Below are positions 16,432-22,794 of a DNA stretch of 36,574 bases, in pieces. Within the stretch, counting starts at the first letter, position 1. Every line of letters begins with the position of its first letter. The translations under genes and the position numbers were made by a program. The stretch lies in the IMG/VR virus record IMGVR_UViG_3300021093_000196, positions 1 through 36,574 of that record, one strand, 5' to 3'. The notes under the pieces were generated by a model. It was not told where the DNA came from. It did not search any database and saw only the letters and a list, made by a program, of their open reading frames with translations. The stretch comes from a virus.

Positions 16432-16773
16432 CTATTGCCCACTAGCTACTTGTCTTGAAGGTGAATCAACAATAACTGCATCTACCCACCAGTATTTGCT
16501 TTTCTTAATAGCAACAAAGTTTCTTTGATTTCTTCTCCAAAGTTCTAACATGTCATTAGTATGCAAAAGTATTCCACTATAATCAACATGATATCCATTT
16601 TCTATTCTGCTAATATGAATAGTATATTTATCTCTTGCTGTACCTTGTTCTTGATATAAATATGATATATCATCAATAGAAAATTCTACATGTTTTGGTA
16701 GATTATTTTCTTCTACATACTCAGTATTTTGCCAAGTATCTTCTGTTCCTACTTTTCTTCTTTCCATTCTCAT
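16432..16773 (-). CDS. Unknown protein, first gene after an insulated promoter
   Basis: One hundred and thirteen residues, mixed strands and helices (HVEFSIDDISYLYQEQ, YTIHISRIENGYHVDYSG, KYWWVDAVIVDS). GAGG lies seven bases before the ATG. The gene is separated from its promoter by the terminator-like hairpin at 16803-16835. Function unknown. Confidence 0.65.
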   Translation of the reverse strand: MRMERRKVGTEDTWQNTEYVEENNLPKHVEFSIDDISYLYQEQGTARDKYTIHISRIENGYHVDYSGILLHTNDMLELWRRNQRNFVAIKKSKYWWVDAVIVDSPSRQVASGQ

Positions 16774-16802: not shown

Positions 16803-16835
16803 AAAAAAGGCGTACCTACGATTAATAGATACGCC
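16803..16835 (-). terminator. Intrinsic terminator joined to a promoter (cassette C)
   Basis: Minus-strand reading: GGCGTATC, 11-base loop, GGTACGCC, then six T. One wobble pair. The first arm begins three bases after the -10 box of the promoter at 16839, so RNA from that promoter would lack the GGC of this arm. Confidence 0.85.
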
Positions 16836-16838
16836 TTT

Positions 16839-16867
16839 AGTATATCACAGTGTTATATTGTTGTCAA
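16839..16867 (-). promoter_or_regulatory. Strong promoter against a terminator (cassette C)
   Basis: Minus strand: TTGACA (16867-16862), 17-base spacer ending TGA, TATACT (16844-16839). The -35 directly follows the stop of the upstream gene. Expected start near 16832, inside the terminator stem. Confidence 0.85.
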
Positions 16868-17791
16868 TCAATTTACTGACACTCTTGCTTGTGAGCCACC
16901 CATTATAACTGCTAGTTTAGCTTTCGTTGTAATATTTTTTACAGCGTCTCTAACTTTAGCGTCATTCTGTATCAATGAGATAGCGTCATCAGATAAACAA
17001 ACTAAATCTGTACTAGTACCACCAATTAAATGTAATGGGGCATCAGTCCAAACTTTCTTAATTTGCTCTTGAGTTTTTGCAAATTTTATTAATGAAGTAT
17101 ATGCTTCAAGTCTTTTTCTTTGAGCTTGTTTTCTATTATCTAATGATAGACAAACCTTCTCAAATGCAAACTTAATTTGCATAATACTTTCAATTGTTTT
17201 TGTATCAACTGCTATTCTTTGATAATTGCACGACCTATTTGGGCGAACAAAAGACCAATTATCTTCTCCATCTTTTTCAACCCATGCGTCTCGTAGCTTT
17301 TCTGCTTTTTGTCTGTGTTCAGTATAAGTAGAATAGGTATATCTTTTAATACCATAATCACTAGGGGTATTATACTTACCCTTATAGTCTACATCTACAT
17401 TTGCTGATAGTAGTGAATCATATTCAAGTACCTCAAATATTTTTTGATTTGGTTGAGACTTATACTCAAATTCCAATCCATGATTAACCGAGGTATCCTT
17501 AAAAATTATACACATATCTTTGTGAGTACAATCATACTTCGCAAGAATGTCCATATCTTTTTTAGGATATTTGGATTCAACAACTTTTCTAACAATTTCA
17601 TGTATGTTAGTTCTAGTTTTGTAATAATTATCCTTTGCTATTTTATAATTATAATCATGGTCTATTACTTCTTCTACGCCTTTCCTATGATTATATTTAG
17701 TTGAAACAGCTGGAGTTCTCATTACAGCTTTAACTGCTTCATGTAGCAGGACTTCCTTATCTGCTTTCAATAGGCGAGTTTGCTTTTCCAT
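16868..17791 (-). CDS. Unknown 307-residue early protein
   Basis: The start is the ATG at 17791, five bases after AGGAG; a frame extension to 17848 runs back into the terminator stem and is discounted. The protein is soluble, Lys/Asp/Tyr-rich, and helical at both ends, with KLRDAWVEKDGEDNWSFVRP in the middle and a Cys/His-containing region (KYDCTHKDMC) near residue 100. The C-terminal part (AVIMGGSQARVSVN) may contain a strand. No domain is recognised. It is a single-gene unit between two promoter/terminator cassettes, one of the largest early proteins. Confidence 0.7.
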   Translation of the reverse strand: MEKQTRLLKADKEVLLHEAVKAVMRTPAVSTKYNHRKGVEEVIDHDYNYKIAKDNYYKTRTNIHEIVRKVVESKYPKKDMDILAKYDCTHKDMCIIFKDTSVNHGLEFEYKSQPNQKIFEVLEYDSLLSANVDVDYKGKYNTPSDYGIKRYTYSTYTEHRQKAEKLRDAWVEKDGEDNWSFVRPNRSCNYQRIAVDTKTIESIMQIKFAFEKVCLSLDNRKQAQRKRLEAYTSLIKFAKTQEQIKKVWTDAPLHLIGGTSTDLVCLSDDAISLIQNDAKVRDAVKNITTKAKLAVIMGGSQARVSVN

Positions 17792-17837
17792 ATGTTCTCC
17801 TATGTTTATGTTGATTTTATCCTTGATTGCTATAAAC

Positions 17838-17869
17838 AAAAAAGGCACTACCTAATTAAAGATAGTGCC
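17838..17869 (-). terminator. Intrinsic terminator joined to a promoter (cassette B)
   Basis: Minus-strand reading: GGCACTATC, 8-base loop, GGTAGTGCC, then six T, with one wobble pair. The first arm starts two bases after the -10 box at 17872. Confidence 0.85.
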
Positions 17870-17871
17870 TC

Positions 17872-17900
17872 ATTATATCAAGCTGTATGTACTATGTCAA
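17872..17900 (-). promoter_or_regulatory. Consensus promoter against a terminator (cassette B)
   Basis: Minus strand: TTGACA (17900-17895), 17-base spacer ending TGA, TATAAT (17877-17872). The stop codon of the upstream gene (TGA, 17899-17897) is inside the -35 box. Expected start near 17865, inside the terminator stem. Confidence 0.9.
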
Positions 17901-18220
17901 ATAGTAGTATTTATTTTTTGAATTACTGCAACATCTCCAGCTATGTAATCCCCCATAACGGGTACACGATTTGCTCTTGTTAGCCAATTATACCAAGCAC
18001 AGTTTGCTTTGTCATTTAGTTTTTTATTTTTTAACTTACCCTCTCCATCAATAAGAATTTCAAACGAACGCTTTGAAAAACCAGTTATGAATCCTTTTTG
18101 TATTTGTATTGTATCTGCATTAATTAATGGATATATTTTAATCCAGCTTCTATCTGTTCCTAAATCGTGTTCTTCTTCGGAGTTATCTGTTCTCCAAATT
18201 AAAACTTTATATTTCTGCAT
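17897..18220 (-). CDS. DUF3846-like protein
   Basis: One hundred and seven residues. INADTIQIQKGFITGFSKRS, FEILIDGEGKLKNKKLNDKA and MGDYIAGDVAVIQK follow the pattern of DUF3846-type phage proteins (a strand, then an IYVDEEGKLxxxxxN segment, then GxVVI near the end). Function of that family is not known to me. It overlaps the preceding gene by 14 bases, and its stop codon forms part of the -35 box of the next promoter. Confidence 0.55.
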   Translation of the reverse strand: MQKYKVLIWRTDNSEEEHDLGTDRSWIKIYPLINADTIQIQKGFITGFSKRSFEILIDGEGKLKNKKLNDKANCAWYNWLTRANRVPVMGDYIAGDVAVIQKINTTI

Positions 18221-18614
18221 TTTCTTTCATAAGTTTTTTAAGATTACTAAATTTTACCTTATGCAAAGCCGTAATCCTAACTTCATCATTATTAAGTAAA
18301 TCATTGATTTTAAATAGTTTTCTACCTATAGAAATCCATTTCATAGTTCTATAATTAATATTTCTATAAGACTTTTTATTTAAATCAAATGCACAAAGAT
18401 AATGTTCTGGGTTTGTAGTTTGTCCCTTACCTTTTAACTTTGTGTAAGTTCCTTCTGTTGTTTTAAATTTTGACCTAGCAACTTTGTCAAATTTACCAAC
18501 ACGATACTCACCATTTTTTTTAATGAAACCAACTCTAAATTTTTTAGATTTAGTTTCTTGTATTAAACTAGAAATAAATGTAGGGAAATCTCCTACAACT
18601 ATTGCTTGTTCCAT
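18207..18614 (-). CDS. WYL_2/SH3-like phage protein
   Basis: One hundred and thirty-five residues. FRVGFIKKNGEYRVGKFDKV, then TTNPEHYLCAFDLNKKSYRN and INYRTMKWI fit the small Sm/SH3-like barrel of phage proteins (WYL_2, formerly DUF2693), where a KxxGxxR strand pair is followed by VxDxxxxxxRxxxxxxI. The C-terminus adds a basic helix. A nucleic-acid or ligand-binding role is conceivable but unproven. It is preceded by a 180-base leader with two stem-loops and an AGGAG site. Confidence 0.5.
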   Translation of the reverse strand: MEQAIVVGDFPTFISSLIQETKSKKFRVGFIKKNGEYRVGKFDKVARSKFKTTEGTYTKLKGKGQTTNPEHYLCAFDLNKKSYRNINYRTMKWISIGRKLFKINDLLNNDEVRITALHKVKFSNLKKLMKENAEI

Positions 18615-18648
18615 TATGTTTCTCCTATGTTATTATTAAACCTTTTAT

Positions 18649-18684
18649 GTGAGTAAGAATGCAGGTTTTCCCCTTCTTACTCAC
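18649..18684 (-). other. Leader stem-loop upstream of the gene at 18614
   Basis: Perfect 11-base stem GTGAGTAAGAA/TTCTTACTCAC around a 14-base loop, located about 35 bases before the ATG. No T-run follows. It may stabilise the mRNA or be an RNase III site. The leader 18615-18763 contains no gene that I can support. Confidence 0.6.
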
Positions 18685-18763
18685 TTTTATTTTATGCAAG
18701 GTTTCACCACTGGTGTTTTCTTTTCCAAAGTTTGTACTTCACTTCAACCAACACTCTTAAAAT

Positions 18764-18795
18764 AAAAAAGGCGTATCCAAATTAATGAATACGCC
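18764..18795 (-). terminator. Intrinsic terminator joined to a promoter (cassette A)
   Basis: Minus-strand reading: GGCGTATTC, 8-base loop, GGATACGCC, then six T, with one wobble pair. The first arm starts three bases after the -10 box at 18799. The GGCGTA core is shared with cassette C. Confidence 0.85.
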
Positions 18796-18798
18796 TTA

Positions 18799-18827
18799 AT
18801 TATACTTTAATATTATACTAATGTCAA
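18799..18827 (-). promoter_or_regulatory. Perfect-consensus promoter against a terminator (cassette A)
   Basis: Minus strand: TTGACA (18827-18822), 17-base spacer, TATAAT (18804-18799). It begins two bases after the stop of the upstream gene. Expected start near 18792, inside the terminator stem. Confidence 0.9.
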
Positions 18828-20424: not shown

Positions 20425-20453
20425 AGCACCTATTATACATGGTGCTTTTTTTT
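20425..20453 (+). terminator. Plus-strand terminator overlapping a minus promoter
   Basis: AGCACC, 10-base loop, GGTGCT, then a run of eight T in all. No plus-strand gene is close upstream, so it may block antisense transcription. The loop is the -10 region of the minus-strand promoter. Confidence 0.65.
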
Positions 20454-20460
20454 ATGTCAA
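20432..20460 (-). promoter_or_regulatory. Perfect-consensus promoter
   Basis: Minus strand: TTGACA (20460-20455), 17-base spacer, TATAAT (20437-20432), with TG directly before the -10. The -35 abuts the T-run of the upstream terminator. Confidence 0.9.
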
Positions 20461-20462
20461 AT

Positions 20463-20496
20463 AAAAAAGCCCCCACAAACTTAATTGCAGGGGCTT
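20463..20496 (-). terminator. Intrinsic terminator after the 22-residue peptide gene
   Basis: Minus-strand reading: AAGCCCC, loop, GGGGCTT, with the T-run continuing. It ends the single-gene unit started by the promoter at 20618. Confidence 0.85.
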
Positions 20497-22766: not shown

Positions 22767-22794
22767 TTGACAATCTAGCCAAATGGTGTATAAT
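22767..22794 (+). promoter_or_regulatory. Rightward promoter of the morphogenesis block
   Basis: TTGACA (22767-22772), 16-base spacer ending GGTG, TATAAT (22789-22794). It shares ATGGTG-TATAATAT with the divergent promoter 32 bases away. The leader to 22912 can fold: AGCC-ATTGT pairs with ACAAT-GGCT around 22849-22888. Confidence 0.85.

Follow-up and report, generated by a model that had tools for sequence, protein, structure and literature searches.

Promoter-first composite promoter-terminators among the early genes of an HMO-2011-type phage and their possible part in sorting RNA by origin

The early region and its three cassettes

The window, by which we mean the whole stretch of DNA that was analysed, is a virus record of 36,574 bases. 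Its terminase shares 75% amino-acid identity with that of the pelagiphage HTVC033P and 46-54% with those of other HMO-2011-type isolates. Terminase, polymerase, portal and gene order are held in common with this group: small early genes are followed by primase, helicase and DNA polymerase, in matching order, on one strand, and the structural genes lie on the other. On these sequence grounds the virus is an HMO-2011-type phage near HTVC033P and not a T4-type one, its closest isolate being an HMO-2011-type podovirus. A megablast of the window found no near-identical DNA in named phages. HTVC033P, a 53-kb isolate with HTCC1062 as its host, is the sole cultured member of HMO-2011 subgroup IX, which reportedly ranks with the group's most abundant; the paper describing it mentions neither promoters nor terminators (PMC9038755).

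Three cassettes, each made of a promoter and of a hairpin followed by a T-run, lie on the minus strand of the early region. We list them with the neighbouring genes and with one further composite.

20432..20494, minus strand: composite in the usual order, terminator 20494-20463 (hairpin 20494-20469 and T6), then promoter 20460-20432
18799..18827, minus strand: site A promoter, TTGACA 18827-18822, N17, TATAAT 18804-18799
18764..18795, minus strand: site A hairpin GGCGTATTCATTAATTTGGATACGCC (18795-18770) and T6 (18769-18764), 3 nt past the -10
18792, minus strand: site A predicted +1, the G after GGC
18207..18614, minus strand: gene after site A, 135 aa, homolog of HTVC033P gp10, weak match to PHROG 2267
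17872..17900, minus strand: site B promoter, TTGACA 17900-17895, N17, TATAAT 17877-17872
17838..17869, minus strand: site B hairpin GGCACTATCT..AGGTAGTGCC (17869-17844) and T6 (17843-17838), 2 nt past the -10
17866 (A) or 17865, minus strand: site B predicted +1
16868..17791, minus strand: gene between sites B and C, 307 aa from ATG; other relatives have gp12-type genes instead
16839..16867, minus strand: site C promoter, TTGACA 16867-16862, N17, TATACT 16844-16839; the -35 abuts the upstream stop codon
16803..16835, minus strand: site C hairpin GGCGTATCTA..TAGGTACGCC (16835-16809) and T6 (16808-16803), 3 nt past the -10
16832 (G), minus strand: site C predicted +1
16432..16773, minus strand: gene after site C, 113 aa

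When the sequence was read again, the cassettes were found where the first-pass annotation had placed them, with the near-perfect promoter that it described (TTGACA-N17-TATAMT in all three, 11-12 of 12 consensus positions) and its gap of 2-3 bases before the terminator (3, 2 and 3 nt for the cassettes at 16867, 17900 and 18827). All three hairpins open with GGC and are followed by six T, also as described, and they close with GCC. The stem, on the other hand, which had been given as 8-9 pairs, has 10, one of them U.G, and this wobble, said to keep the same position throughout, is pair 8 in two cassettes but pair 7 in the third. The complete elements read TTGACA-N17-TATAAT-TAA-GGCGTATTCATTAATTTGGATACGCC-TTTTTT at site A (18827-18764), TTGACA-N17-TATAAT-GA-GGCACTATCTTTAATTAGGTAGTGCC-TTTTTT at site B (17900-17838) and TTGACA-N17-TATACT-AAA-GGCGTATCTATTAATCGTAGGTACGCC-TTTTTT at site C (16867-16803). 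The start proposed at first pass, on the seventh base after the -10, falls directly after GGC in the cassettes at 16867 and 18827 but one base further at 17900, where a start on the sixth base, at a C/A step, would drop exactly GGC.

A G+C-containing 10-pair stem with T6 directly after it has the form of an intrinsic terminator, and we treat the hairpins as putative ones; promoters and terminators of the cassettes rank among the strongest matches of the region. No Rfam match was found in the window or in HTVC033P. The SDs of the window genes lie outside the cassette hairpins, so the full hairpin hides none of them. At most sites the -35 abuts or contains the stop codon of the upstream gene: a single nucleotide separates the two at site A, and a TGA lies within TTGACA at window 17900, in the relatives' loci L182, L213, L220, L226 and L019, and in HTVC033P. 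The promoter would thus fill the stretch that must part stop codon from terminator, and space would be saved.

Chance co-occurrence of promoter and stem was ruled out. With a promoter of at least 11/12 and a terminator within 0-6 nt after it, such pairs number 3 in the window and 0 in each of 100 dinucleotide shuffles, and 0.007 of them would be expected if 7 terminators and 10 promoters were placed at random. The order terminator then promoter occurs in the window only at 20494/20460, in an arrangement also found in L009; the three cassettes are reversed.

Several minor features of the region were recorded. The promoter 20460-20432 has AGCACC..GGTGCT around its -10, which on the plus strand gives a 6-pair stem and then a T-run, a possible antisense terminator. 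A leader of about 150 nt (18763-18620, minus strand) separates the site A terminator from the gp10-type gene; it folds better than shuffles (z -2.6, and z -2.4 for L294:2126-2270), has no Rfam match, and varies among relatives, some having a long leader and others one of about 20 nt. Where the early genes meet the structural ones, consensus promoters stand back to back (22735-22707, minus strand; 22767-22794, plus strand), and about 250 non-coding bases next to them contain runs of C and of G.

Spacing and pairing in relatives

Loci of relatives were gathered by a conserved neighbour protein and by DNA pattern, and in 29 clade loci every promoter-terminator pair within 120 nt was listed with no preference as to spacing. 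With d taken as the nucleotides from the -10 to the start of the stem, all 27 distinct promoter-first elements lie at d = 2-4 (1 at 2, 20 at 3, 6 at 4), and 11 elements have the terminator upstream, with 41-77 nt from the first base of its stem to the end of the -10; many of these elements share ancestry, so the counts of 27 and 11 are not independent. No stem stands at d = 5-111 after a strong promoter in the 29 loci: spacings at which a promoter would terminate its own RNA are depleted in the clade. The promoter-stem spacing pointed out at first pass is thus conserved at orthologous sites, in HTVC033P as well as in relatives known from metagenomes.

Orthology is given by the flanking genes, site A lying before the gp10-type gene, site B before the 307-aa or gp12-type gene and site C after it. 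The site A promoter has orthologs in L009, L018, L157, L182, L214, L220 and HTVC033P, and the last carries cassettes at site A (2066, d = 4) and site B (3103, d = 3). The genes between and after the sites vary among relatives while the sites persist, and cassettes within one genome look alike (loop TTAATT). In HTVC033P the expected place of site C, between gp12 and gp13, is a non-coding gap of 183 bases (L294:4217-4400) whose folding, at z -1.4, is not clearly above that of shuffles. No cassette was found in the stretches examined of HMO-2011, HTVC115P and HTVC027P, so the cassette is not universal in the wider group. A distant blastn search with one cassette returned chance matches only.

A pattern scan of IMG/VR gave 20 distinct hairpins, 18 of them at d = 2-5, whereas a near-identical pattern in bacterial and archaeal genomes (one per species) gave 26, of which 3 lie at d = 2-5 and the others at 7-19. 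This contrast was drawn with a stricter pattern that allowed 0-14 nt between -10 and GGC; a looser IMG/VR pattern gave mostly background among the matches listed. Since the bacterial and archaeal look-alikes stand mostly at 7-19, the tight spacing is a trait of these phages and not of the search. A C|R step at the start was discarded as evidence, a purine after GGC being common in the bacterial look-alikes also.

The stems have diverged in sequence and kept their pairing. In 23 distinct clade stems 229 of 230 positions are paired, and the observed pairing was never reached in 2000 column shuffles, be it over the first eight pairs or over the basal three; relatedness of the stems inflates this result but does not explain the double changes. 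Basal pair 2 goes from G-C to A-U, with a G.U intermediate in L217, and basal pair 3 from C-G to G-C. The position at which sigma70 promoters start is established for E. coli and is carried over here; the predicted +1 follows that behaviour, from which a SAR11-type polymerase may differ. The basal three pairs lie about 4-6 nt past the -10, upstream of the position at which sigma70 transcription usually begins. As the predicted start comes after the first base of the stem in all promoter-terminator layouts of the clade, the promoter's own RNA would never hold the complete stem. That the basal pairs covary although they lie outside this predicted RNA is best explained by selection on RNA arriving from upstream. 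In pairs 4-10 of the 23 stems, whose sequences are related, wobbles have U on the 5' side of the stem and G on the 3' side in 27 cases, against 3 of the converse.

Upstream RNA, own RNA and the competing readings

The leading explanation, which we hold with moderate confidence on sequence evidence, is that the terminator spares its own promoter and acts on RNA coming from upstream. A cassette would be a host-sigma70 early promoter set in a short untranslated 3' segment bounded by the upstream stop codon and the intrinsic terminator, and the basal pairs of the latter would lie ahead of the new transcription start. In RNA from upstream all 10 pairs of the stem would form next to the U-run, and this RNA would terminate. 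The promoter's own RNA, starting about 6-8 nt past the -10, would lack the outer 2-3 pairs (GGC, GAC or GGG), form a weaker hairpin 2-3 nt back from the U-run and mostly read on into the gene. Each early gene or pair of genes would then be expressed from its own promoter alone, in minimal space.

Predicted energies go in this direction. The full hairpin of site A has -14.4 kcal/mol and the one from +1 has -7.0; the corresponding values are -14.9 and, from 17866, -6.3 kcal/mol at site B, and -14.7 and, from +1, -7.3 kcal/mol at site C. In the window cassettes GCC is left unpaired between the truncated stem and the U-run, and an intrinsic terminator whose hairpin stands 3 nt farther from its U-run should terminate poorly. 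The earlier statement that the new RNA lacks the base of the stem and passes is therefore plausible, but a 7-pair hairpin stays, about twofold weaker and 3 nt off the U-run. Across the elements the own RNA still forms a hairpin of -4 to -11 kcal/mol ahead of the U-run, so partial self-termination by the truncated hairpin is possible according to the folding model; elements with d = 4 and a GGG base would lose 2 pairs only. "Insulator", the word first used for the cassettes, goes too far: transcripts would be kept apart, but a polymerase from upstream has to run over the promoter first and would stop only afterwards, which leaves the promoter unshielded.

A further argument comes from site A in L219, L227 and L235, where there is no terminator and the promoter is followed by an SD-masking hairpin, for example GTACTCTTATTAACCAATAGGAGTACAATG. 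In the predicted read-through RNA of these loci AGGAG is masked at -8 to -15 kcal/mol; in L219 it is hidden in read-through RNA (-15.1 kcal/mol) and exposed in RNA from +7 (-2.8 kcal/mol for the whole segment). Two silencing modes at one site, with the start inside the 5' arm in both, are the strongest hint that sorting by origin has been selected. The self-exempting mechanism of the first-pass annotation thus gains from the spacing, the covariation of the basal pairs and this SD-masking alternative, whereas the actual 5' ends, the termination of upstream RNA and the escape of own RNA are what we infer. A broader and tentative proposal, possible rather than probable in our eyes, would be that an abundant marine phage clade sorts RNA by origin: only read-through RNA would form the complete hairpin and be silenced, through termination or through SD masking, which could replace each other at a given site, and each early gene would answer to its own promoter alone. 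SD-masking hairpins predicted to be broken in promoter-started RNA were recorded at L219:8908-, L227:6921- and L235:6015-, all at site A, and at L294:1739+.

One could also assume that the hairpin chiefly serves the new mRNA, whose base-paired 5' end would resist 5'-end-dependent decay, upstream termination being secondary or one of two roles; we find this unlikely as the main function. The own RNA does retain a hairpin of 6-8 pairs from the predicted +1, and not every start-site hairpin is a terminator, since site B of L018 keeps promoter and hairpin at d = 3 without a T-run, and the predicted RNA of the strong window promoter 19370-19280 (minus strand) opens with a 12-pair hairpin, TGTGTAGTTAGG..CCTAACTACACA, which has a long structured loop and again no T-run. 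The latter and L220:512, which likewise lacks a T-run, are 5'-terminal hairpins that would be whole in the own RNA. The case of L018 leaves room for a 5'-end role in the new mRNA, and 5'-end protection may be shared or primary at some sites. Such a role requires, however, neither basal pairs that covary outside the own RNA nor a T-run kept in nearly all elements; a T-run follows 26 of the 35 start-site hairpins, and such a hairpin is absent from many of the clade's other promoters.

Promoter-proximal attenuation, in which much of the own RNA would stop at the T-run as short RNAs unless a phage factor or a condition permits read-through, seems to us a still poorer candidate. The predicted start is indeed some 25-31 nt away from hairpin and U-run, the truncated stems keep the folding energy quoted above, and the bacterial look-alikes at d 7-19 fit the layout. 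An attenuator, though, starts upstream of a complete stem, and here the stem base is 3-4 nt past the -10, ahead of the predicted start. The range in which attenuation would be efficient, d = 5-111, is the one that holds no clade element; the spacing is held at the very edge where the base of the stem is lost, and three unpaired nucleotides part the stem from the U-run.

It is improbable, in our opinion, that promoter and terminator were simply packed together once and then copied, their overlap at the start having no functional meaning. Compaction and common ancestry would account for the -35 abutting or containing the upstream stop codon and for the likeness of cassettes within a genome, but d stays at 2-4 while the spacer changes in sequence and differs by 1-2 nt in length and the stems diverge with compensation, and at site A a translational hairpin takes the same start-in-arm placement. 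As to a DNA operator, in which the inverted repeat that directly follows the -10 and spans the start region would be bound by a dimeric repressor, we give it hardly any credence, for stem sequences differ among sites while the pairing, the U.G wobbles and the T-run are kept, which argues for selection at the RNA level.

Related systems and other overlaps

Returning to terminators that would spare their own promoter, parallels can be drawn with several known systems. Composite elements termed PeSL (promoter-early stem-loop) are reportedly found in T4-type phages, as Arbiol in 2010 and Comeau in 2014 are said to have described. The cassettes resemble them in that a strong sigma70-like early promoter adjoins, and is fused to, a stem-loop of the intrinsic-terminator type, at small early genes and repeatedly in a gene-swapping region. 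In our scan of RB49, which we take to be the type phage for these elements, most elements have the terminator ahead of the promoter (d -64 to -67) and a few overlap (d -17, 0, 5 or 6), whereas the cassettes have the promoter first at a fixed 2-4 nt.

Another parallel concerns the leader hairpins of the T4 genes e, soc, 49 and I-TevI, in which RNA from upstream bears a complete silencing hairpin; for gene e, upstream transcripts are silenced, and translation is left to late transcripts in which the 5' part of the structure is missing (PMC3014915). The adjacent promoter starts its RNA inside the hairpin, so that this RNA lacks the 5' part, as we predict here from the -10 (seventh base). The T4 hairpins block translation and serve late promoters, whereas the cassettes have a T-run, and termination should be their mode of action; no SD is hidden in the window cassettes, unlike at site A of L219, L227 and L235. 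A literature search for overlapping or composite promoter-terminators found the Salmonella case alone, in which the terminator of one unit overlaps the promoter of the next and affects expression, for instance at tufB-secE and S10-spc-alpha (PMC7055797). That case is bacterial, conserved for operon concatenation, and like the cassettes by its overlap.

In control of the pyrC type in E. coli, the formation of a 5' hairpin depends on a start shift of 2-3 nt. Which start is used is set by nucleotide pools, and the hairpin, once formed, covers the SD; the start position governs a 5' hairpin there as well, but no terminator is involved. Composite promoter-terminators (PeSLs) and control by a start inside a hairpin are already known, and the geometry seen here is a variation on them. 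By analogy, the cassettes would be composite promoter-terminators working like the control of T4 gene e, at the level of termination. If this is confirmed, phages that infect the most abundant marine bacteria, and whose gene regulation is almost unstudied, would possess a 65-base part that closes one transcript and opens the next yet does not stop itself, and it could provide a compact part for synthetic gene circuits. The rule implied is that a stem 2-4 nt past the -10 would spare the promoter and that one at least 8 nt past it would not.

Other overlaps were also encountered. In six terminator-upstream elements the -35 lies within the hairpin of the terminator, as it does in CCCCTGTGTCTTAATTGACATGGGGG-T7 of HTVC033P (L294:615-640, L294:1247-1273, L018:290, L157:1185, L182:6568 and L182:7016), which, judging by the layout, could be another self-sparing overlap after the start-in-arm form. 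In unrelated IMG/VR contigs (L106, L123, L134, L141, L151, L155, L105 and L167) it is the -10 that is enclosed by a strong terminator hairpin, in its loop or its upper stem; with the -10 inside the hairpin, as in L106, L123, L155, L105 and L167, the start would fall in the loop or 3' arm and the own RNA would be spared completely.
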